DNA from: Apophysomyces variabilis
Taxonomy: Eukaryota > Mucoromycota > Mucoromycetes > Mucorales > Mucoraceae
DNA length: 64,000 nt
Assembly: GCA_002749535.1 (NCBI GenBank)
Contig: MZZL01000133.1
Coordinates: 82,921-146,920 of the forward strand
Direction of reading: 5' to 3'
Under the pieces are notes generated by a model. It ran no database searches. It worked only from the letters and a program-made list of their open reading frames with translations, and was not told where the DNA came from. Of this stretch, positions 17,765 to 59,070 are shown in pieces. Positions within the stretch are counted from its first letter, which is position 1; each line of letters begins with the position of its first letter. Position numbers and translations under genes: made by a program.

Positions 17765-19508
17765 ATGACAGCCAGTTTCTTCGATACATTAGTATCTGCA
17801 TCTGATGATCCCAAACCTCAAGCATCGCAGGATTCGACCACATCCAGTGCATCACTTGTTTTTGAATCAGCCGCTACCGATTCGCCATGTTCACCAAAAC
17901 AAGAGCAACAACATAATAAGAACAATAAAATAGGAGAAAGACCGAAGCTACCGGTCTACGAAGGTGAAGCGAGAGAAGAAGCCGGAATGCATAAATGACT
18001 AAGAGGAGTTTAGATTATTTACCCGACTGGCAAGCGTTGAAAAAGACATATGCATCCCAAAAAGATGGTAAACAAGCAATGTTTTTCTTACTTATCTCTT
18101 ATGGGCTATGGTTTTTTTTTGTCATTATTACCTAGTGCTTCATCAACAAATGATTAGTCAACTTCAGAAATTGCGTGATCTGGAAGAACGTTTCGACAAG
18201 ATGAGTGGGGATTTTCATAGTAAAGTCGAAAATGCCTATTTGCGATTATCCGATGAATTAACGGAATGGCAAACTTCACTTGATCTGGAAAAGAGCAAAT
18301 ATGAAAAAGAAAAAGAGATGATGCGAGGTAAGAGAAACAGAGATCCTAACACAGCAACGTCTTATGTTATTGTATGTAGAGGTCCGAAAAATCCAGGATG
18401 AAAAGGTGAAATTGAATGTAGGAGGTCAGCTCTTTGAAACTTCTCTTACTACCTTACGGCGAGACCCAAACTCCATGTTGGCTGCCATGTTTAACGGTAA
18501 GTAAAAAAAAAAAAATAATCATTACGCATCCAAGTCTGACAAAAAACGTTACTTTTTCTTTTGCTATTCCTCTGCTCAGGCCATCGAACTATTAAACCGG
18601 ATGCTGACGGATCTTATTTCATTGATCGAGATAGTACTTATTTCCGCCTCGTGCTAAACTATCTACGTGATCTGCGGGTAAGGATTTGCACAAAGGTTTC
18701 CCCCTTTTCCTTTTCTTCTTCTATTATGAAATGAGAGATCCAGGTTAAACAAGAAAAAAAAATAGATTCCACCCAATGTACGCAATAATCCAAAAGTGTG
18801 AGTAGATTGATTGCAAAATACGATCAGATGAGGGCTATGGTGGCTAGTGAAGGAAGGATGTCTCTAATCAAGATTTTGTAGTATGGATGAACTGATACAA
18901 GAAGCCAGATTTTACAAGATATCAGGTAAATTTGTCTCGCCTCTCTGGTTACTTTCCAGGGTTGAAAATACAACAACTATTCATCTTGCTTATCTTTCCA
19001 TTTGGAACTTGATAATAGGTTTACTCAAGTTGCGATGGCTGGATCTACCAAAAGTGACCCAAGGTAACATGGGAGTGCGATTCTTGTACTTTGGTTAGAC
19101 GGGATAATCTTAAAAAGATCTTTCAATTGGTATTAGATCAGCTATGGAAGCTTTATCCCATAAAGAAAGAGCAACAGGCAGTAACGATGCTATTACAAAA
19201 CAAGGATTTGAGCGGATTGGATTTTTCAAATTACCGAATTGATCCACGTTCACGATTTGATGGTAGCAATCTGGAAGGTGCTCATTTCGAACATGCTTGG
19301 TTCGTTTTTGATTTCGATCACAAAGTGGATTTCACCAATGCATATATGATGGGCGCACGATTCCCGGCTGCAGGGACTCCGCAGCGTGCCCCAGGTAAGT
19401 AAGATAACTACCATGAATGACGCGCTGATTGCTCTTTTGATGCGCGTTTTAGGCGTGCAATTTAAGTTAGAAGGTGCCATAACCAATGATCCGTTGATTG
19501 AGAATTGA
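17765..19508 (+). CDS. BTB/POZ (KCTD-like T1) protein with pentapeptide repeats
   Basis: A Ser/Thr/Gln-rich N-terminus is followed by a short coiled coil (LQKLRDLEERFDKMSGDF). A BTB domain of the potassium-channel-tetramerisation kind then starts at VKLNVGGQLFETSLTTLRRD and runs through MLAAMFNGH and SYFIDRDSTYFRLVLNYLRD. Near the C-terminus, LSGLDFSNYRIDPRSRFDGS followed by NLEGAHFEHAWF looks like pentapeptide repeats. KCTD proteins often act as cullin-3 adaptors; substrate unknown here. Exons: 17765-17963, 18014-18067, 18136-18327, 18380-18496, 18580-18677, 18766-18797, 18882-18925, 19019-about 19063, about 19070-19394, 19453-19508. Intron 1 (50 nt) contains TGACTAAG, a good branch site. 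Around 19063-19099 the reading frame (ending DLPKVT, resuming CDSCTLVRRDNL) does not join by any normal intron; one base appears gained or lost. Confidence 0.85.
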
Positions 19509-20809: not shown

Positions 20810-21988
20810 TTACTGCACTAGCTCTCTCAGAAAGTTATAGACCTTGGGTCTACGATGATCCCATTCTCTGATATCGTTGCCAAACACGATTCGGTAGTTA
20901 GCATAATCCAATGGCTCTATATCTCGTATAAAACACCGTATGCGCGATTTACCCGGGAAGTCAACGTCAGATAACATTCCTCTGGATACACGCCCGATAC
21001 GCCATATGGCCATATACCGTTGGTAAAACATCGAAATGGTTCTTCTTGCAAAATCAAGCTCTTCTGCTTCTTTGTGGATCGGTGACTTCATCTCCTTCTT
21101 GCGCGACTCTACAATATAGTAGCCCCATTCATCAGCTCGCCTCCGTAGCGCTTGTTTATCGTCTCGTTTAATATCCTTATACCATGAGTCGACACGTTTC
21201 ACGCTTTGATGCATCTTTTTGGACGAGTGGTCGGACATTAAACTCATCACCATTTTGGTAATTTCCATTCGCCCTTCTTCGGACATGACTACGTTGGAAA
21301 GGTGTAATGGAGGCAGACTATCCACTTCGATTGGAAATCCGTATTCATTTGTGATTTGCATAAAACCATAGATGGTCATGCATGTTCCATTTATACAGGC
21401 TATTCGACGTATCGATTCGATCATATCTTCGTCAAGTCGCCCGTAAAGGTTTTGATACTGCTGGATAAAGATCTCCCATGCCCTTTCGGGGGCGGTTTTT
21501 CTTCCGATGTAGCTCATCCAGAATTCATAACTTTTTTCTGACATGTGATGCTTCACATGATCAACCTTCGGCTCATTGACAACGTCCGCGAGGTGTGTAA
21601 CTTGGTTAAATCCTTCGATCTTCCTCGCCATATCTTCCGCGATTTCCTTGAAGGACCGTCTATACCGCGTCGCTAAATATACGCGACTAGAATTCCACAC
21701 AAACTTGCCAAACAAATTGCGCTCCTTCGCTTCTCGTCTGAGGAACTCTTCGACATCTGTTTGTGCTGAATCAAGAATAGCTTTCATACTAACCACAAAT
21801 TGATAATTGATCGAGTCCTCGCACGAGGCTGTGTCGATGCGCGGTAATATGGTTTTAATCATGGTACATTGATCTTTCAATTCTAGTGCTTCAGGGAACA
21901 CCTTGACCCAGTCGTCGACGCTCTCGCTTATGATCTTGTATACATCTCCAATGAGCTTTGCAAGTTCACTTGGTTCTAAGGAGAGCAT
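20810..21988 (-). CDS. Putative MLKL-like helical-bundle protein, copy A (392 aa)
   Basis: Intronless and intact. Residues 1-150 are predicted by eye to be all-helical, with spacing like the MLKL N-terminal four-helix bundle (Cbl-N/MLKL-NTD superfamily): LKDQCTMIKTILPRID, then VSMKAILDSAQTDVEEFLRR, then FVWNSSRVYLATRYRRSFKE followed by IAEDMARKIEGFNQV. A middle region (about 155-235) is helical and ends YGFMQITNEYGFPIEVD. It recalls the EF-hand-like segment that follows such bundles in some fungal proteins. The C-terminal third carries FYQRYMAIWRIGRVSRGMLS, DVDFPGKSRIRCFI and PLDYANYRIVF, function unknown. There is no kinase domain, signal peptide or membrane segment. It is paralogous to the 23913-25088 gene, with same strand and length and long conserved blocks (SNVVMSEEGRMEI, KMVMSLMSD). 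It neighbours HET-domain genes. The family resemblance is inference from pattern only. Confidence 0.7.
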   Translation of the reverse strand: MLSLEPSELAKLIGDVYKIISESVDDWVKVFPEALELKDQCTMIKTILPRIDTASCEDSINYQFVVSMKAILDSAQTDVEEFLRREAKERNLFGKFVWNSSRVYLATRYRRSFKEIAEDMARKIEGFNQVTHLADVVNEPKVDHVKHHMSEKSYEFWMSYIGRKTAPERAWEIFIQQYQNLYGRLDEDMIESIRRIACINGTCMTIYGFMQITNEYGFPIEVDSLPPLHLSNVVMSEEGRMEITKMVMSLMSDHSSKKMHQSVKRVDSWYKDIKRDDKQALRRRADEWGYYIVESRKKEMKSPIHKEAEELDFARRTISMFYQRYMAIWRIGRVSRGMLSDVDFPGKSRIRCFIRDIEPLDYANYRIVFGNDIREWDHRRPKVYNFLRELVQ

Positions 21989-23912
21989 CCGGGAAGTACA
22001 GTGCTAAATAGGCCAGATAGATGGATACGGTTGCTGCTCGGTGGGGCGATTTCTCGGTAAGGAGCACTGTATCTGGTGAACTTTATATATATATAGCTTT
22101 TGCAGTTTTTCTTTTAAACGAGTCAAACGTTTTCAAACGCATTATATGTTTGCATCCATTAGTTACTTTTCTCTTTTTGTTTCAAGGATGTTGTACAGAG
22201 AGTTTAGCTAGGTTGGTTTGAATTTAACGAGGTAGCCGACGCACTATGCAAAATCGTGTCCAATGGATTGTTATGCTTTGCCAACGAACTGTTTTGACTT
22301 GCATTCACTTACCACAAGATCCAGTATCTGTTATTGTGCCACAACTTTTAAGTTAAAAGTGTCGAGTCGTTTCGGCTTCTAGTCCGAATGGGTGATTGTC
22401 TGCTCGAGTAAGAGCTTCGTGTTAAGCATTAAATTCACAACATTATAATCCGTCTGCCTAATCTGCACAGCAAATAAAATACAATGGGTAACAGCATACG
22501 ATTCAGTAAACTAATGTGCATCAGTCATCCGCATGGACTACCAAAAGTAAGCAAGAAGTGGTGTCATCCCAATGATGCAAACTTAGCCGAGGCAAAGTAG
22601 CCCGTTACCACACAAACAAAAGTGCATGCCAAGCTACATGTGAAGTACATTCAGGTTGCATCCAAGTTTGATTAAAAAGAACTGTTCGGTTATTGATATT
22701 TTCTTTTTTTTTCTTTCGAGCATGCACCATTAGTGAACATAACTTTGACTTCTATCTGGTCCACGATATTATAGGGGAAAGAAACGTACTCACACACTTT
22801 CAATTAAGGAAATAACCAAGAAGTAGAAAAGCTTTAAAATAAGCTTTGTACTATGCAGAACGTTTTGATGGCTTTGTCACTTTTATCAATCACGTCACTG
22901 CAACGGTTGTTTTCTGCCAAGGTCCGTGCCTCTATGTACCTTAGACTAATACGAACTTTCATACTCATCGGTCTGTGCATGTGGTTCACTCGGGGATAAA
23001 TGCTAGAAAAGAAAATCAGGAACCATATCTGTTTGTGTTCATTACTAGCTATGTCAACACCAACACCACTAAGCCAGAGTTGCATGCGGTTTTGTCATCA
23101 TCCAGTAGGTCTTGCTTCTCACGGTTAATGAGCGCAACTATGCTTTGGGACATAGTTCCTTGCCTTATGAATATCAAATGCATATTAGTGCTATACGATG
23201 TACTCAACTATTGCACAGCTCGTTATTTTATGGCGTGTAGATCTCGGGTGGAAAGCGCACGGATCAAACCTGTAGCATCTACCAACTCGGTCTTTCAGAG
23301 AGAATCCAATCAAAGGATGTAAGGCATTCGAACTCATAACAGACTATCGTTTGATTGATTTTATGCCAAATAAGGTCAATGTTGACTAGCGAGACTCGTC
23401 ATGATATGGTGCTTGTTCTATAACAGCTGTTTAGCCTTATGCAGTGACTTGTGTGTCAGCAGCTCGTTGAGCGAACTGTAGTTTCTAATCATATAAAACA
23501 GCCCGGTCATGCCTTTACCAACACTACTTAATTTGTGCTCAATCGCTTCAACACAATATGGATCCACGGTTAATCATGGGCATTATGGTTCACTCTACAA
23601 AGGAATCGGAACACAATGAATCATATTATCCTGTGTAAACTGTATTTGAAGTTTACTGTCGGTGTTCTACGTATCAGAAGAATAGACATCTTGTTTACTT
23701 ATGCAGGACACCGATTTTAGGTACAATACCTTAATTACCATTATCTACCAATCGAAGGATCTACAAAGAAAGAGTCAAATAGTTTAATTAATCAGATTGT
23801 ACTTTATTAACTTGGTAAAATCGTCTGTAATGCTATCCGTGTATGAGCAGATCAAGGTTCTCTGTGTTTTCCTTCCTTCTATTTCTGATCGCTCCCACTT
23901 TCACCAACAAAT
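21989..23912. other. Intergenic region upstream of copy A; conserved block shared with copy B
   Basis: No gene recognised. TTCGGCTTCTAGTCCGAATG at 22371-22390 recurs with three changes at 25288-25307, at a similar distance upstream of copy B, and more scattered similarity surrounds it. This suggests the duplication included the 5' regulatory region. A short TA run lies at 22086-22096. Confidence 0.55.
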
Positions 23913-25088
23913 TTATAACAACTCTTTCAAAAATTTGTAGACCTTAGGGCTGCGGTGATCCCATCTAGCGGGATCTTGCCGTATCACAATTCGGTAATTA
24001 GCATAATCCAGCGGATATATGTACCGTAGGAAACTTCGGATCCGCGCTTTACCAGGAAAATCAACGTCGGATAACATTTCTCTAGATACCCGTCCGATGC
24101 GCCATATCACCATGTATCGTTGGTAGAATAATGAAATAGTCTTTCTTGAATAGTCAAGTTCTTCTGCAGTTAAGTGCAGCTCTGTCTTGTGCTCCGCATT
24201 ACGTGACGCAACGATACACTCAGCCCACTCGTCCGCCCTTTTTTGTAAAGCGTCGTTATCCTCTCTATTAACACCCTTATACCATAACTCAACACGGATA
24301 AAGCTCTGGTGCATTTCTTTTGAGGAAAAATCGGACATTAATGACATCACCATCTTGGCAATTTCCATTCGTCCTTCTTCAGACATAACTACGTTGGAAA
24401 GAGGTAATGGGGGTAGTCTGTCTACATCGATAGGAAACCCATATTCTTTTGTGATACGTATGAAGCCATAGACAGTCAGGTCCGTTCCATTCACGCAGGC
24501 TACTCGACGTATGGACTCGATCATATCTTCGCTAAGTCGACCGTAAATGATTTGATATTGCTGGATAAAGATGGCCCATGCGTTATTATCCGAAACGTTA
24601 CTTCCAACGTGCTTCATCCAAAACTCGTAGCTTGCCGGTGACAAAAGATCCTTCACATGGTCAACAGTGACCTTTCTGAAACAGTCGCCAAGATTCATAT
24701 ACATTGTAATATCACGGATGCTCTCGGCAAGCGCGTCCGACTTATTCTTGAATGATTCTCTATACCACGTTGCCAAGAAGACTCGCTTGGAATTCCAAAA
24801 CACTTTCCCCAGAAGATGACGTTCTTTAGTGTCTCGTCGGATGAACTCCTCGATCTCATCCCTTGCAGATTCAAGTATAGTTTTGATCGTAGCCATACAT
24901 CGATATTGGAGTGAGTCTTCGTCAAGGCCAGTGTCGATGTGAGGTAATATTGCATCCACCACGCTACATTGATTCTTCAGAACTAGCGCTTCGGGGATTA
25001 CGTTGACCCAATCATCGGCACGTTGCTCTATGATAATGAATATCTCTCGAAGGAGGGTGGCAACTTCACCCGTGATTAACTGTGCCAT
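23913..25088 (-). CDS. Putative MLKL-like helical-bundle protein, copy B (391 aa)
   Basis: Intact, intronless paralogue of the 20810-21988 gene in the same orientation. The N-terminal bundle pattern is conserved: LKNQCSVVDAILPHID, MATIKTILESARDEIEEFIR, WNSKRVFLATWYRESFKN. The middle block (SYEFWMKHVG, WAIFIQQYQIIYGRLSEDMI, VYGFIRITKEYGFPIDVDRL) and the C-terminal block (FYQRYMVIWRIGRVSREMLS, FPGKARIRSFLRYIYPLDYA) are strongly conserved. Differences concentrate in the N-terminal 150 residues and in the 270-310 region, as expected if the bundle diversifies faster. Both copies being open over ~390 codons, beside decayed HET copies, argues for selection to keep them. Function not established; a membrane-acting death effector is one hypothesis. 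Confidence 0.7.
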   Translation of the reverse strand: MAQLITGEVATLLREIFIIIEQRADDWVNVIPEALVLKNQCSVVDAILPHIDTGLDEDSLQYRCMATIKTILESARDEIEEFIRRDTKERHLLGKVFWNSKRVFLATWYRESFKNKSDALAESIRDITMYMNLGDCFRKVTVDHVKDLLSPASYEFWMKHVGSNVSDNNAWAIFIQQYQIIYGRLSEDMIESIRRVACVNGTDLTVYGFIRITKEYGFPIDVDRLPPLPLSNVVMSEEGRMEIAKMVMSLMSDFSSKEMHQSFIRVELWYKGVNREDNDALQKRADEWAECIVASRNAEHKTELHLTAEELDYSRKTISLFYQRYMVIWRIGRVSREMLSDVDFPGKARIRSFLRYIYPLDYANYRIVIRQDPARWDHRSPKVYKFLKELL

Positions 25089-26028
25089 AGAAAAAGTAAA
25101 AAATAAGTATATTTAAATTAGATACAGTTACGCCTAGTTAACAGCAAAGTTAAATAATTGGTTTTAAATAAAGGCCGCACCCTTCCTAGAAATGGGGCCA
25201 ATCTAGGACTATTGCTCCGACTGCACCGCACTTTTTCAGTGTGCGCCTTGTGCTACGGTCTTAGGTTCAAATTTTTTTGATTTGCTTCGGCTTCCCGTCC
25301 GAGTGGTTGTTAATCTCACAGGGCAAACTTCGGTTTTATGGACATGATTAACTGCTATCGTCCATATACCCATTGCTAGCACAACATTGACTTTCAACTG
25401 CAATGATATCTTGTTTTATAGATCCACGGCAGTCATATACACAGATTTCCCCGAAATGGTGGGGAGATGGTATTATCCATTGATGTAAACGTTGGACAAG
25501 GTGATGCAGGCCATGACCCAGGAAAATAGAAGTACATACCGTTCTATCTATGAAGTTTTGGCGATCCTTATGACACTAAGATATAATTGTATCTGAGTTT
25601 GCTAGCAGGAACAGTTCCGCGGCCCGCAGCCCTATGTATATGTCTACCTTTCTTCCTGTCTGTCTTCGTTTGATACCAGAAAGATGTTAGGAATCCAATG
25701 TAATATAATGGAAACGAGGCATCTAAGCATTTGTAAGCGGAGTAAACAAACTATGACAAGGCTGTACATGCAAAATCTTCCTGGAGCTTTGTACCTTTGT
25801 CTATTTCTCTACGAAACGAGACTTTTCTGGTCACCCTTTGGCTGTATATGTCTTGTGCTACTAGAGATTTTCATATAGAACGATGGATGCATGTCGCACA
25901 TTCGGAATAAAAGCTTAAAAAAATGGGAACCGTGTGGTTTTGTATTTTGTTACTACCAGCATCAACACCATGGCTAAGCCTGTGCTGCATGGGGATTTGC
26001 ACCACTTTTGTTTCTGTTTATCACACCA
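25089..26028. other. Divergent intergenic region between copy B and the intact HET gene
   Basis: No gene recognised. It contains the copy-B version of the conserved block (25288-25307). At about 25955-25980, ACTACCAGC...ATGGCTAAGCC matches the corresponding position upstream of the two decayed HET copies (about 28370-28400 on plus; about 32505-32490 on minus), so HET upstream sequence is also shared. Confidence 0.5.
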
Positions 26029-27294
26029 ATGAGTGAAATTGTGCTCTTAGATACGGGATCTGACTTTAACAACATCAAATGCATATCTATGATGTTCGGC
26101 CAAGATATTCCGGAATATTATGCCATTTCATATCGATGGGGACAACATCCTGTATGGAAGGCACAAACCCCAAATTATACGGCATACATTACTTCGGTAT
26201 CGCAGGGCAACTTGATTAGACTATGTGAGATACTACGTCCGAAAATACGTTATCTTTGGATTGATGTCGTATGCATCAATCAAGCAGACATATTTCACAG
26301 AAAGATGGCCATCAAAAACATGGACAAGATATATCGACGAGCAGAAAGGATTGTTGCCGTACCCGACCTTTGCTATTGTGACCGATACCCACGTATGCAA
26401 AACATTACCAAACAAGACATTGATCTGGCTGTCAAAAAAATCTCACAGTACGAAGCACACTGCAGCAAGACTAGCGGCTTGGAGGAACGCCGGCGTATTT
26501 GGCCATCAAAAGGCGTGATATTTGTTCGGGAGGTTATCCAAGAATGGGCATGTAGATGCTGGGTGATCAGCGAGCGCGTTATTGGTTTGAAGGATAACAA
26601 GTTGGATATAATCATTATACGAGCGGGTGGCACAAAGATTTCCTACGAGGAATGGCGGAGCTACCTCTTCGTTGACTGGAACATCAACTTTGACCAAGCT
26701 ACCCTCATCAATACGATCATTAATTCCAAATCAACCAAGTACATCGATAGACTTTTTGCCATACTTCCACATACCAAGTATCAGAATGCTGTGAGGAAAT
26801 TGGTAGATGAAGGCCGAACTGTCGCTAATATAATCGATCTGAAGATGACTTTGTTGGATATTCTAGACATCGAGGGTAAAATTGTACTACTGAGGCACTC
26901 TGTTTCTGAGCAGGGTGATTTTCGACGAGTGTTACCATTGTTCACGAAGAGGACGAACAATCGGTTGCCAGCAGTTAGTCTGTCCGATCAAAATCACTAT
27001 TGCAATGTCGAGCCGGCGCTACAGGACGGAAAACCTGCAATAAAAGTTTCGGGCTACTACAACATCAAGCCGGCGCCCGTCACTTATCGTAAATTGAGCA
27101 ACCTATTCGGGCTTAAGGTTAAGTCAGTGCTCGATATTGTTCTTGTGAAAGAGCATCGCGGCTATTACACTAGCCCATGGCAACGATGTCTTAGATGCAT
27201 TAAGACAAACGGTATTTGGATCGTTGACTCTATCAGAAATGAACAGGTCCCACAGAATGAACGTTACAAACGCGGAGAGTTTGTTATATTTTGA
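26029..27294 (+). CDS. HET-domain protein, intact copy (421 aa)
   Basis: A heterokaryon-incompatibility (HET) domain fills the N-terminal half. Motifs in order are YYAISYRWG (residues 30-38), YLWIDVVCINQAD (about 75-87), RKMAIKNMDKIYRRAERIVA with VPD (about 91-112), and CRCWVISERVIG (about 180). The C-terminal ~220 residues have SKSTKYIDRLFAILPHTKYQ, a block also conserved in the two broken copies, and end in GEFVIF. HET domains of Pezizomycotina trigger cell death on nonself recognition, and the fold has been linked to TIR domains. The ATG at 26029 is the first in frame. Unlike copy 2, it has no charged N-terminal extension. No introns. Its neighbours are two MLKL-like paralogues upstream and two decayed HET copies downstream. 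Confidence 0.85.
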   Translation: MSEIVLLDTGSDFNNIKCISMMFGQDIPEYYAISYRWGQHPVWKAQTPNYTAYITSVSQGNLIRLCEILRPKIRYLWIDVVCINQADIFHRKMAIKNMDKIYRRAERIVAVPDLCYCDRYPRMQNITKQDIDLAVKKISQYEAHCSKTSGLEERRRIWPSKGVIFVREVIQEWACRCWVISERVIGLKDNKLDIIIIRAGGTKISYEEWRSYLFVDWNINFDQATLINTIINSKSTKYIDRLFAILPHTKYQNAVRKLVDEGRTVANIIDLKMTLLDILDIEGKIVLLRHSVSEQGDFRRVLPLFTKRTNNRLPAVSLSDQNHYCNVEPALQDGKPAIKVSGYYNIKPAPVTYRKLSNLFGLKVKSVLDIVLVKEHRGYYTSPWQRCLRCIKTNGIWIVDSIRNEQVPQNERYKRGEFVIF

Positions 27295-28474: not shown

Positions 28475-30233
28475 ATGAGCGACTTGAACGACATAAACCG
28501 CGTTTGTACACGAGCAGATGAAGATTATTTTTGGTATGCTTTCCACCGCTTAGATCCCTATCTTGAATCGGGAGGTGGAATGTCAGAATATGATACTTTC
28601 AGGGTTTGGTTATCGCAACTGGATCAAATCAAGAGCGATATTGCTTTTGTACACAAGGATTATGACTTTATCTACTTACCAAGAAAACTTTCATCATACG
28701 AAGCAGATATCTGTCGACAGCATTGCGACAAGAAGCGCAAATGCGAACATCAAATGGCTTTTCGAGATATCCGTGAAAGGCTTCGAGAAAAGCTGCGTGA
28801 AAAAGCCTGTGAAACGCTACGTGAGTTACGTGCAATTTCCTATCTGGGGGATAGCAGTTCGGAGTCGCGGAGAAATCGGATGGAGAATGAGATCGTTCTT
28901 TGCACACAAGCTCAGAAATGAACAATATCCAATGCATATCAATACGGTTCGATGAAAATATCCCGGCATACTATGCAATTTCGTATCGGTGGGGTGTACA
29001 TCCTGAATGGAAAGCACAAACCCCAAACTACATCGCCTCCATCACTTCGATTTCACAGGGCAATCTCATCAAGCTATGCAAGTACTACCGGTCCAGAATA
29101 CGCTACATGTGGATCGATGTCGTATGTATCAATCAAGCAGACAGTGCACACAGAAAGATGGCAATTAAAAACTTGGACAACATATATCGAAGAGCAAAAA
29201 GGATCATCGCAGTTCCTGATCTCTGTTATTGCTCCGAAAGTCCTTTAATGGAAGACGTTACCAAAGCAGATATTGAAGCTGCAGTTATTGACAATTGGAA
29301 AGATAATGTTTTTCAACTCTCCAATATTGACACATTAAACACGTTATTCGACGTAAATGAGCCGGGGACATACTGTGGCATTCGTTTAGACATTGGTGAC
29401 CTGGGCGAGTGGATGGAGCCATGGAACGAAGGAAGTTGGTTTCGTCCTCTTGATCATCATGTCCATAAAAAGGAACAGCTGGGCAGGAAAGTGAATGGGC
29501 AGAGAGAGCTTGGGTAGTTAGCGAACGCATCATCGGTGTGACCGGCAAAAAACTGCTTATACATATATTGAGAGCAAATGCAGTTTTATACTGGAGACTT
29601 TTCGATTATGTTAGCTGGTCGTTTGACCTCGACCAATATTCTCTTGTCAAATCCATCCTTCAATCCAAGTCAACCAAGCCCATTGACCGCTTGTTCGCTA
29701 TACTTCCTCACACCCAGTATAAGGATGCTGTGCAGAAATTGGTGGAGGAAGGAAGAACTGTCAATGATGAGGAGGATTTGAAGTGGGTTTTATTCGATAT
29801 TCTAGACGTGGAAGGGAGAAACGGTTTATTTATTTACCTCATTGAACAACCTGGAAGAATTGTCGAAGTACTGCCATTATGAGTACAGGAAAAAGAATTC
29901 TGCTATTACGAGGAAACTCTCCCGTACAATACTGCCAACGACGCGGTTGCTTTAGAGATCCAAACAACAGCAGCACAACGTGAAAAACGTGCGCTTAAAG
30001 TCTTACTTCCATTCATATATCGACACTCGCAAGTCTTGTGCGACGACAGTCAGCTATTGGATGCTGCGTACGGTTCAGAGATGAAGCTAATTTATCCATG
30101 GTGCAAGAATCCCGAGCTTTACTCCATTATTGTATGTCATATGTCAAATGACGTTTGGAAGGTCAAAAGCCGTTATCGCGTTGTTAAGCCTCCACCCATC
30201 TGCAAATACGGTGAATTTCTGATAGTTTGGTAG
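28475..30233 (+). pseudogene. HET-domain gene, copy 2 (left arm), frameshifted
   Basis: Segments 28475-28921, about 28900-29517, 29538-29882 and 30036-30233 are one HET gene broken into frames. A charged helical extension of about 135 residues (MSDLNDINRVCTRADEDYFW onward) precedes the HET domain and is absent from the intact copy. The HET motifs are present: YYAISYRWG, YMWIDVVCINQAD, RRAKRIIAVPD, WVVSERIIG. Lesions: one T appears missing in the T-run at about 28891, where copies 1 and 3 read LLDT; a deletion with frame change near 29495-29505; and a stop or frame change at 29879 onward. The C-terminus resumes at 30036 and ends KYGEFLIVW. The first lesion alone could be a base-calling error, but the others together argue for a pseudogene. 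Confidence 0.75.
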
Positions 30234-30644: not shown

Positions 30645-32460
30645 CTAACATAATATTTGAAACTCGCCGTATTTACCTGTGTGCGGAGCCGTATTATCGT
30701 AACATTTGCCCGTCATCTTCCAAACGTCATTTGACTTGCCACATTCGATGAAGGTGTACATCCCAAAAAATTTACTATATGGAAAAATGAGCTCCATATC
30801 TGAGCCGTTAGTAGCATCCATTCGCTGGCTGACATCCTCCGAGACCTTCATGAAAGGAAGTGCACGTTTTCCGTGTCGTGTCGTTGTTCCTTGTATATCC
30901 GACATAACCTGGCCTCCAGGAAAATATTGCGACATAGTTTTTTCATATAATCCGAATTCTATATTTCTCGCCGATAATGGCAGCACATTAATAGATTTTC
31001 TTTAATCCATAACGAGGTAACCCAATAGCTGGTTTCTCCCCTTCATGTCTAGAATATTCAATAAAATCCACTCCAAATCCTCATCATCACCGGCAATTAT
31101 TTCCTCATCCACCAGTTTCTGCACAGCATCCTTATATTTGGTGTGAGGAAGTATGGCGAACAAGCGGTCAATGGGCTTGGTGGACTTGGACTGAAGGGAT
31201 GGATTTGAAAAAAAAATCATGCCTCAAGTCAAACCAGTAGCTAAAGGTATTCAAATATCCCCAATATACAACTGCATTCGCTCTCAATATATGTACAACC
31301 AGTTTTCTGTCGTTTACACCGATAATGCGTTCGCTAATTAGCCAAGCTTTCTCTGCCCATTCTGTTGCAATCCGCAAGATAAACTCATGACCCTTCTGTT
31401 GGTTGCCCAGTCGTTCTCTCTCATAAGCAGAGTAATCATGATTACGAAACCAAGGTTCTAGGTACCGTGGCTTCATACGCTCATGAAGTTTGTCAGTGTC
31501 AATGCTTAACCGAAACCCCTTATACATTCCCGGCTCGTTTCTCTCGAATAACTTTTCCATGTCATGGCCCTCAAAACCTTCATATTCATGATCTCTCGCT
31601 ATAAACAATTTCCGCTTCGATGTCTGTCTTGGTCACGTCTCCATTAGAGGGTTTTGATCGCAATAACAGAGATCAGTGCTGCAATAATCCTTTTCGCCCT
31701 TCGATATATGCTGTCCATGTTTTTTATTGCCATCTTTCTGTGTGCTTTGTCCTCTTGATTGATACATACAACATCAATCTATATATAGCGTATTATGGCG
31801 CGTTAGTACTTGCATAGTTTGATCTGATTGTCTTGGGAAATAGAAGTGATCGATGTCACGTAATTTCAAGTTTGTGCTTTCCATTCAGGATGTACACCCC
31901 ACGGATACGAAATTGCATAGTATGCCGGGATTTCTTCATCGAACGGTATTGATATACAGTGGATGGCGTTCATCTTTGATTTTGTGTCCAAAAGAACAAT
32001 CTCGTTCTCGATCCGGTTTCTCCGAAACTCCCAAGTGGCACCCCACTGATAGGAAATTGCGCGTAACTCACGGAAACTTTTGCAAAGGTGTTTGCTGGAT
32101 CTTTGGAAAAGCTGCTCACGGATATTTATCAAGACGTCTTGGGATTCGTTTTCAGTAAGAGATTCCCAAGGTATGCGAACTTGGAAGGGAATTCATATTT
32201 CCAGTTTCAAGAACAAATATGCACAAATCATAATCCTTCTTTACAAGGGCAATATCTTTCTATAGTTATTGCCACTGCGGCATCAGAGCGATATGCACCT
32301 TATGGGGTAATGTACGCGCCTTTGGTTTGGACGAACCGATTTGAAGGACCTAACTCCTGCCAGGATTTCTTCATCAACGGTTCCCAAACTCGGTTGATGC
32401 TGTTGAGTCGCCCATCCCCCATATGCAAGGATAAATAAAAGCAACTTTGGGCAAAAGGAT
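30645..32460 (-). pseudogene. HET-domain gene, copy 3 (right arm), decayed
   Basis: On the minus strand, 32132-31866 encodes RNRIENEIVLLDTKSKMNAI and YYAISYPWG. Note Pro where the other copies have Arg in the first HET motif. From 31866 to 31608 the HET core is readable (IDVVCINQEDKAHRKMAIKN) but carries several in-frame stops. 31608-31168 gives ATEWAEKAWLISERIIGV, 31220-31002 gives STKPIDRLFAILPHTKYKDA, and 30986-30645 is the C-terminus ending KYGEFQILC. The N-terminal extension is also fragmented (32460-32132). Damage is heavier than in copy 2, so this copy was inactivated earlier or is under no constraint. Confidence 0.8.
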
Positions 32461-44720: not shown

Positions 44721-46870
44721 ACTTCATTTTTTCCTATGGATCAGATGAATAACCTTTTTGACGTTTCCATTTCTTTCTTTTTTTTTTTTTAATCTACATA
44801 GCATTATTTTCTAAAGCTAGTATTGCATGGTAATGTCCATGTTCCATTAAATCATCCGAAAGAGATTCTGGATTGTGCCTGTGGAGCAGGTAAAGAAAAA
44901 AAAGACACAAGATGGATTCTATATTTTTAGCTATCCATCTCTCTCTAAGTTGGATGAACTCATGGAATGGCAATCTTTTTCTTATTACTTATTCCCCTCT
45001 ATTTCTATTGAAAAAACAAAAAAAGGGCTCTGGGCAATCGAGATGGCGCAATTGTTTCCGTATTGTAAAGTAACAGGCATTGACTTTGCTTTACCCAATG
45101 AATACGATCAATTCAACGGAATCCCTAATTTGCAATTTATTCATGGTGATATCCGCTTACCATTGGCTTTTGCTGATCATACCTTTGACTTGATCTATCA
45201 ACGGGATGTTGCATCCATGTTACCTTCCTCCTGTTGGCCACACCTTATATGGGAATGGAAACGGATTCTTAAACCCGGTGGCTATCTCCAATTGATCGAG
45301 TACGGTAAGGTAATAGATTGACTTGGCATCCAGTTCACTCAAGTTTCCCCCCCCCTTTTTTTTTTCCTTTTCTCTAGATTCATTTTTCAAAAATCCCGGA
45401 CCTGTTCTTTCCTTGATCAATGAATGGTGTAAACTTGCTGCATTGACTTTGGGAGTGGATCCCTATGGTGTAGACAAGTTACCGCATTTACTGAGATCGG
45501 CCGGATTTGAATCTCAAGTTCATGACATCGATATTCCTATTGGTGAATGGCCTAAAGATCCAAGTAAATAATTTTGGAAAGAATGTCCCTCTGCTGTTCC
45601 CTTATTTTCTTCTTACTTCTTTTATTTTCCTTATCTCTAATTGATCTCTCTACTATCATTCTTTTCTTTTTTTTTTAAATAGTTCAGCGACAATATGGAT
45701 TTTTACAGAGTCAACAAACGCAACTCTGGTTTAAATCGATGCGCCATTTATGGTCAGGTAAGATTCCTGGTATCTCATCGGAAGGCTATGANTATTTTCT
45801 AAAGCTAGTATTGCATGGTAATGTCCATGTTCCATTAAATCATCCGAAAGAGATTCTGGATTGTGCCTGTGGAGCAGGTAAAGAAAAAAAAGACACAAGA
45901 TGGATTCTATATTTTTAGCTATCCATCTCTCTCTAAGTTGGATGAACTCATGGAATGGCAATCTTTTTCTTATTACTTATTCCCCTCTATTTCTATTGAA
46001 AAAACAAAAAAAGGGCTCTGGGCAATCGAGATGGCGCAATTGTTTCCGTATTGTAAAGTAACAGGCATTGACTTTGCTTTACCCAATGAATACGATCAAT
46101 TCAACGGAATCCCTAATTTGCAATTTATTCATGGTGATATCCGCTTACCATTGGCTTTTGCTGATCATACCTTTGACTTGATCTATCAACGGGATGTTGC
46201 ATCCATGTTACCTTCCTCCTGTTGGCCACACCTTATATGGGAATGGAAACGGATTCTTAAACCCGGTGGCTATCTCCAATTGATCGAGTACGGTAAGGTA
46301 ATAGATTGACTTGGCATCCAGTTCACTCAAGTTTCCCCCCCCCTTTTTTTTTTCCTTTTCTCTAGATTCATTTTTCAAAAATCCCGGACCTGTTCTTTCC
46401 TTGATCAATGAATGGTGTAAACTTGCTGCATTGACTTTGGGAGTGGATCCCTATGGTGTAGACAAGTTACCGCATTTACTGAGATCGGCCGGATTTGAAT
46501 CTCAAGTTCATGACATCGATATTCCTATTGGTGAATGGCCTAAAGATCCAAGTAAATAATTTTGGAAAGAATGTCCCTCTGCTGTTCCCTTATTTTCTTC
46601 TTACTTCTTTTATTTTCCTTATCTCTAATTGATCTCTCTACTATCATTCTTTTCTTTTTTTTTTAAATAGTTCAGCGACAATATGGATTTTTACAGAGTC
46701 AACAAACGCAACTCTGGTTTAAATCGATGCGCCATTTATGGTCAGGTAAGATTCCTGGTATCTCATCGGAAGGCTATGATCGTGTTTGCGCCGAGGCACG
46801 TACTGAGTATGACGAATACCAATGTATGACCCGATGGAAAATAATTACTGCTTACATAAAGTTGTCCTAG
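44007..46870 (+). CDS. SAM-dependent methyltransferase with disordered N-terminus
   Basis: Class I methyltransferase of the kind common in Mucoromycota. Exons: 44007-44485, 44644-44656 (13 nt), 44802-44889, 45026-45304, 45378-45563, 45683 onward. The 3' end is unique sequence to 46870, reached through the second copy of a near-1-kb duplication (second-copy exons 45793-45877, 46014-46292, 46366-46551, 46671-46870). If the duplication is collapsed the product is 414 aa. Motif I is ILDCACGAGLWAIEMAQLFP, then VTGIDFA, FIHGDIRLPLAFADHTFDLI, and RILKPGGYLQLIEYG. Motif I has Ala where many relatives have Gly (CACGAG). The first ~160 residues are Gln/Ser-rich and start MGGTSSKE, a candidate N-myristoylation site. 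Substrate unknown. Confidence 0.85.
44677..44717. repeat. (CT)n microsatellite in a methyltransferase intron
   Basis: An uninterrupted CT run of about 40 bases in the intron between the 13-nt exon and the next exon. It probably extends a natural polypyrimidine tract. Confidence 0.95.
44805..46779. repeat. Direct duplication of 987 bp with an N at the junction, probably an assembly artefact
   Basis: 44805-45791 and 45793-46779 appear identical by reading, with all three reading frames in each giving the same proteins. The copies are separated by a single N at 45792. The first copy stops at GAAGGCTATGA and the second continues from the same string into unique sequence. The unit starts inside one exon and ends inside another of the same gene. 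Confidence 0.9.
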
Positions 46871-58115: not shown

Positions 58116-58387
58116 ATTGTTACACTTGTGGTAAGTGATTATGCCAGTCTCTTCGATTATCACTAACTTCAGGAAACTGTTTTCACTGCGCGGGACCTTC
58201 TTATGCCAATTGGAAATCATGGTTTGCCCTTGCCTTTGAATTATGGGCAAGAGAAAGGCATGTAGCATCAATATCTCTCATGAATATCTGGCTGAACGGT
58301 GCAACTTGTCGTTTGTGTAACGCAAACCAAATTTCCGATTGGCGCAAAAAAGGGGTTTCGAGCAGCGTAAAAATGTTTCCGCAAAAA

Positions 58388-59070
58388 AAAAAAAGTAATA
58401 GGGAATCTATCTCACTCCATCTCCAATCCGGTTTATCTCTCGTTTCTATCTCGCGCTCTGAATTTCGCCTAGCTCAGCTACCGGCTTTTGATACTTTACA
58501 TGCCACTTACCCACGAGCCACCAAGAAAGCCTGGAACGGATTTTGGAACGCCCGCTTGCCTAACACAGCTCACACGATTCTCTGGAGACTCTATCACAAT
58601 AGTCTACCGTACCGTCAGCGCCTCCACGAACTGCTGCCTGCTCGTTTTACATCGCCATTTTGCCCTATTTGTGGGCTGGTCGAATCTCAAGAGCATCTTT
58701 TGTGGTCCTGCCCATACAAACAACCAGTTTGGCAACGTTTGGCCAATCTCTTTCTAGTCAGCCCCTCACACCTCACGTCTGCCTCTGTCTTCACAGTTGA
58801 TCCACCACCTTTGCCATTGCAGGAACATGCTTCTATCGATTTCTTAACTTTCATTGCCTGCGTCACGATGAATATCTGGCGCTCGCATTGGGCTTTTGTG
58901 TTCGATAACACTCCCTTTCACCCAGCACAAGTCATCGCCAAAACCATTCAAGACGCTTGAAAGCAGAAAAGGAATGTGTACGTTAGAATAGATCACCATT
59001 AATTTGTGACCGCTCTCAGCGGCACATAATAAACTTCATTCTACACATAAAAAAAGTAATAGGAAATCTA
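58388..59070 (+). mobile_element. 5'-truncated LINE 3' end with target-site duplication
   Basis: The C-terminal part of a LINE ORF2 ends at a stop at 58958-58960. It reads a WNGFWNARLPNTAHTILWRL block, then the zinc-binding motif CPICGLVESQEHLLWSCPY typical of the end of LINE reverse transcriptases, then a helical tail. A 3' UTR with AATAAA (about 59026) and a short A-run follows. The element is flanked by a near-perfect duplication: A-run plus GTAATAGGGAATCTA at 58388-58409 and A-run plus GTAATAGGAAATCTA at 59049-59070 (one mismatch). Such long duplications are usual for LINE insertion by target-primed reverse transcription, and the truncated 5' end is typical. The insertion lies about 270 bases after the Fanzor stop. 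Confidence 0.85.

Follow-up and report, generated by a model that had tools for sequence, protein, structure and literature searches.

Three-Domain Proteins with an EP-Like Domain and Their HET-Domain Neighbors in Apophysomyces variabilis

Introduction

In plants, TIR products bind the EP cavities of EDS1 dimers, leading to the recruitment of helper NLRs as calcium channels (PMC12856790, available text). The HET domain is related to TIR (PMC4986451, PMC9153377, accessible portions), and HET families and their expansion in the Mucorales have already been published for Lichtheimia (PMC4133162) and Apophysomyces (PMC5604411), with the function of these genes called unclear in the available text of both reports. 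Here we describe a locus within 64,000 nucleotides of Apophysomyces variabilis DNA (contig MZZL01000133.1; this whole stretch is hereafter the window), from a genome of 38.7 Mb in 126 contigs, at which two paralogous genes, A and B, stand beside a HET-domain gene. Each paralog appears to join receiver-type and executor-type domains in one chain next to the TIR-like gene.

We tentatively interpret the paralogs as equivalents, united in a single chain, of the EDS1/helper-NLR step of plants, with HET proteins acting upstream, a proposal to which we give somewhat less than an even chance. What we show are the gene frames, a modeled three-domain architecture, a likeness to EP domains in both structure and sequence, and head-to-head HET linkage at both loci of the family in this genome.

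The Paralogs and Their Domain Architecture

Paralog A (20810-21988, minus strand, 392 residues), paralog B (23913-25088, minus strand, 391 residues) and the HET-domain gene (26008-27294, plus strand, 428 residues from a TTG codon, with the first ATG at 26029) are all uninterrupted frames, in agreement with a preliminary description of this DNA, which had reported two intact same-strand paralogs of about 390 codons and a HET gene pointing away from them. Paralog B and the HET gene are head-to-head, with 940 bp separating their ATG codons, and the HET assignment was also confirmed (PF06985 at 56.2 bits, where the cut-off is 22.5, and E 6.4e-15). The two paralogs are 60% identical in alignment. 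In a Pfam scan paralog B matched no family and paralog A only three weakly, all below cut-off; an NCBIfam search with the whole proteins returned nothing useful. Based on modeling of paralog B, and on alignment of paralog A to it, we consider it very probable that both consist of an N-terminal four-helix bundle, a Cbl-type EF-hand and a C-terminal EP-like domain.

The EP-like domain (EDS1/PAD4/SAG101 type) occupies residues 237-391 of paralog B (23916..24380, minus strand). The structure model of residues 226-391 has a predicted local distance difference test (pLDDT) score of 90.9, and in structure comparison the top nine entries were all EDS1, PAD4 or SAG101, after which the score fell from 9.7 to 5.6. 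The likeness was first seen in this comparison and the sequence evidence was tested afterwards, by profile comparison against shuffles and decoys, which backed it. The EPLDIA-type signature of the EDS1 family, in the form PLDxAN, is well conserved in the fungal proteins (PLD in 21 of 21, the following A and N each in 20 of 21), although the E before PLD is not invariant. It is conceivable that the resemblance is a chance likeness among helical bundles, but we regard this as highly improbable in view of the nine EDS1-family entries and the gap beneath them, the independent sequence evidence, and the agreement in register: the structural alignment stops 32 residues past PLD in the fungal protein and 34 past PLD in both EDS1 and PAD4. 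The paralogs have no kinase, and the C-terminal block, novel in the preliminary description, is EP-like.

The fungal domain differs from its plant relatives in several respects. The modeled likeness spans the EP part up to about EDS1 residue 501 or PAD4 residue 428, and the plant EP domain runs on past the region where the fungal copy stops. Where the EDS1 family has an N-terminal lipase-like domain, the fungal paralogs carry the four-helix bundle instead, fused with the EF-hand. The basic cavity residues of EDS1 are given as K440/441, K478, and R493 (PMC6377607, available text). In the fungal proteins K440 is replaced by Arg (23 of 23), K441 by a hydrophobic residue or Thr, and R493 by Val (21 of 21), while the K478 position is variable. 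Two basic positions appear to be kept, and those of R493 and K478 are not.

Other searches were negative. The Pfam EDS1_EP profile (PF18117) was matched neither among the 25 of 27 families listed nor in a Pfam search with the C-terminal part, and its genome search was empty, though the control also matched nowhere. Sequence-only searches with the C-terminal part against PDB and Pfam gave nothing useful, and EDS1 was not among the best 50 Foldseek matches listed. No relatives of the domain were found in prokaryote or viral contig scans (two short patterns each), and no match with an E under 0.7 came from a structure search of viral proteins. A DUF4760-like identity of the C-terminal block had been considered and was set aside upon the appearance of the EP match. 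No report of an EP domain in fungi was found in the available text of the literature searched, preprints and most subscription papers lying outside that search.

The middle of the paralogs had been described as EF-hand-like, and it proved more exactly to be of the Cbl type (paralog B residues 151-216; 24441..24638, minus strand). Cbl and Cbl-b were matched by profile at E 0.02-0.05, the hhalign score was 35.0 (best of 200 shuffles, 20.6), and Cbl filled Foldseek ranks 1-13, with a best E of 0.021. A genome search for Cbl_N2 was empty, but its control matched nowhere either.

The N-terminal four-helix bundle occupies residues 1-131 of paralog B (24696..25088, minus strand), with modeled helices at residues 2-23, 33-50, 60-93, and 95-131, bearing out the proposal of such a bundle in the N-terminal ~150 residues. 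Its assignment as an MLKL-type bundle did not survive as worded, MLKL being merely one of several bundles in this class. The matches listed in structure comparison included Rx-CC, NRC2, NRG1, and Cbl, with unrelated helical bundles scoring equally high, and MLKL was not among the best 50. By profile, the N-terminal region matched NRC2a at E 0.032 with a 23-row profile; with a nine-row profile the Cbl and NRC2a matches disappeared. The usual hydropathy threshold for a membrane helix is 1.6, and no 19-residue window in the first 140-odd residues reaches it (peaks of 0.61 in A and 1.46 in B).

Several known systems come close to the paralogs. The plant CC and helper NLRs NRG1, NRC2, and Rx have an N-terminal four-helix bundle like that of the paralogs, as does the helper NLR ADR1; however, NLRs of the CC/RNL type possess NB-ARC and LRR domains, neither of which was matched in the paralogs in the Pfam scan. 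MLKL also has an N-terminal four-helix bundle, a possible membrane executor, but the fold is present in many families, and in place of the MLKL pseudokinase domain (none in the Pfam scan) the paralogs have the EF-hand and EP-like domains. Fungal HeLo/HELL proteins likewise have a four-helix N-terminus, but the paralogs have no strongly hydrophobic helix in the bundle and HeLo (PF14479) was not matched among the families listed for them. Genome searches, which were six-frame and ignored introns, gave no match for HeLo or TIR_2 and none over cut-off for NACHT or NB-ARC. Among early-diverging fungi, MLKL-family proteins are ascribed to the Glomeromycotina only (PMC8778642, available text).

In Cbl and Cbl-b, the tyrosine-kinase-binding (TKB) module begins with a four-helix bundle and continues with a Cbl-type EF-hand, the same order as in the paralogs. 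This order, together with the absence of a strongly hydrophobic helix from the bundle, would suit a Cbl-like scaffold or adaptor that does not attack membranes, in which the bundle combines with the EF-hand into a rigid unit for binding proteins and a partner is bound by the EP-like domain. We think such a role unlikely, as the Cbl SH2-like domain is replaced by the all-helical EP-like domain, no RING match was found in the Pfam scan, and the bundle also resembles the CC domains of killer proteins, as in the NRC2a match.

Relatives and Divergence of the Paralogs

At least 20 related proteins were found in a search of 5.8 billion (E up to 1), and the family looks small. The genera of 13 of 20 relatives are Apophysomyces, Fennellomyces, Zychaea, Circinella, Phascolomyces, Absidia, and Cunninghamella, all of which belong to the Mucorales. 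The nearest named relatives are Apophysomyces proteins, and A. ossiformis holds the same A/B pair under consecutive tags, EC973_001193/001194. The ratio of nonsynonymous to synonymous substitution (dN/dS, NG86) between A and B is 0.26, at a dS of about 1.1, which is near saturation. The existence of these relatives, the dN/dS value and the shared pair show that A and B are not chance frames. Seven relatives (P0006, P0008, P0009, P0048, P0049, P0051, and P0055), including the Fennellomyces, Zychaea, Circinella, and Phascolomyces forms, have a long insertion between bundle helices 2 and 3.

Three family members were found in the genome, the third being on the same contig, 13 kb past the right end of the window, and absent from the preliminary description. 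In a tree each copy groups with its own A. ossiformis counterpart (support 100/100), indicating that the three copies are older than the split of these species. Paralog B is identical to EC973_001194 at 387 of 391 residues (99%), and the third paralog to its counterpart at 356 of 399 (89%), with the differences spread evenly over its length. Paralog A has a sharp step at the EF-hand/EP border, where the EF-hand unit ends: it and its counterpart differ at 64 of the first 215 residues and at 6 of the 177 that follow (identities of 70% over residues 1-210 and 96% over 211-392). Judged from protein sequence, old divergent N-terminal alleles on a common EP part, as if recombined, would explain this step, and so would conversion from an unsampled copy; the pattern would fit a diversifying executor with a conserved receiver.

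Linkage to HET Genes

The paralogs had been set beside a HET gene, and the region is indeed rich in them: a genome search found 47 HET places, 19 on the contig of the window and 17 on one other contig. A HET domain match lies 1028 bp from paralog B and another 1016 bp from the third paralog, divergent in both cases, so that both family loci of this genome have a divergent HET neighbor. An alternative is that the paralogs, as regulators or executors whose sensor is EP-like, have no functional relation to the HET neighbor and sit in a region that gathers HET copies. The nearly equal distances at two loci speak against it, and we judge it to be a real possibility but on the improbable side. It draws on several observations which, along with the low hydropathy of the bundle, weigh against our proposal. 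Sites at which a 1.2-kb gene would lie no more than 1.5 kb from a HET match account for 0.46% of the genome as a whole and for 18% of this contig, so that the linkage stands out strikingly against the genome but modestly against the contig. Only two of the 47 HET places have a family member within 1.5 kb, and the one beside the third paralog is a relic; nor do the intergenic stretches of the two loci align. Finally, no ortholog of the window HET was found among the 38 A. ossiformis proteins listed, and none of these bears a locus tag neighboring the conserved EC973_001193/001194 pair.

The comparison with A. ossiformis covered 23 of 30 HET rows, seven places on the minus strand being left out. 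The window HET is matched best (57.7%) by a protein that is itself the 86.7% counterpart of a different HET in this genome. For ten of the 23 rows the proteins listed include a counterpart at no less than 82%, making turnover of the window HET plausible; it is possible that an A. ossiformis ortholog is unannotated or was not retrieved. The tags EC973_007626/007627 were considered as a further paralog-HET linkage and rejected, because the genes lie on contigs of different length (2768 and 2765) and the HET member corresponds, at 96%, to a gene that in this genome is on another contig. Around 37 HET loci, out to 1.5 kb, the only recurring non-HET neighbors by eye were HET shadow frames and an upstream HET exon.

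We take INQxDxxE to be the consensus of a HET motif, and its glutamate to be equivalent to the catalytic glutamate of TIR. The window HET has a histidine in place of this glutamate, as do 22 of 26 distinct motif strings from the fetched HET loci (Gln in two, Glu in one, broken in one); an ascomycete sequence among the HET matches keeps the glutamate. If the residue is catalytic, enzyme activity may belong to other copies, to which the window HET would be a non-enzymatic partner, or a different chemistry may be at work. In three Absidia repens HETs the glutamate appears by eye to have moved by one position. Elsewhere in the genome, a single 816-codon frame (G000:C33:70919-73012, locus L027) has three tandem HET-domain matches.

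Proposed Mechanism

Under our proposal of a single-chain EDS1/helper-NLR counterpart, TIR-like HET proteins would act upstream of the EP-like proteins. The signal received by the C-terminal EP-like domain would most likely be a messenger of the nucleotide type or else the EP domain of a partner, and the Cbl-type EF-hand would couple this receiver to the N-terminal bundle of the plant CC/MLKL class. Once released, the bundle would oligomerize at the membrane and kill or arrest the hyphal compartment. The role of such a system would presumably be immunity against viruses, bacteria, or transposons, and not vegetative incompatibility. The locus had been put forward as a nonself/cell-death locus of a type new in Mucoromycota; HET families in Mucorales were already published, and the "incompatibility" label is doubtful because Mucorales form no heterokaryons through somatic fusion (PMC4133162, available text). 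The published Mucorales HET genes form large families, as here, and linked four-helix/EP proteins are not mentioned in the available text of those reports (PMC4133162, PMC5604411).

There may be a plant-like death-signaling pathway in fungi. A more specific version, that Mucorales have a TIR-to-EP-to-four-helix death pathway resembling the one in seed plants but with two genes and without NLRs, in which a nucleotide-type signal is made or passed on by a TIR-like HET protein and another protein is both receiver and membrane executor, we consider rather unlikely. If true, EDS1-type signaling would not be a plant invention, and its simplest form may be a receiver-executor in one chain. A fungal EP-like domain with a killer-type bundle beside TIR-like genes is a lead on the origin of EDS1 signaling, and the paralogs are candidate effectors for the Mucorales HET genes; a two-gene system makes both questions testable.

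Surroundings of the Locus

To the right of the HET gene are two broken HET copies absent from the preliminary description, one of the long (about 600-residue) type at about 28475-30233 (plus strand) and one at about 30645-32192 (minus strand), with outer limits set by eye and approximate. The left flank of the trio has a non-long-terminal-repeat (non-LTR) element and a hAT-like piece, the latter below the Pfam cut-off, and a short pentapeptide-repeat frame (19091-19402) lies directly left of the paralogs. Neither Rfam nor a tRNA scan gave any match in the window. Ordinary genes farther out encode a C2H2 zinc-finger protein, a WD40 protein and an RRM/RanBP-type zinc-finger protein. Pieces of non-LTR retroelements were seen at 166-2060 (an endonuclease frame and its neighbor) and 58280-58960 (a reverse transcriptase-linked zinc-binding frame). 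Two identical 156-residue frames, methyltransferase-like by eye, are situated 988 bp apart at 44851-45321 and 45839-46309 and represent either an artifact of the assembly or a tandem duplication that happened very recently.
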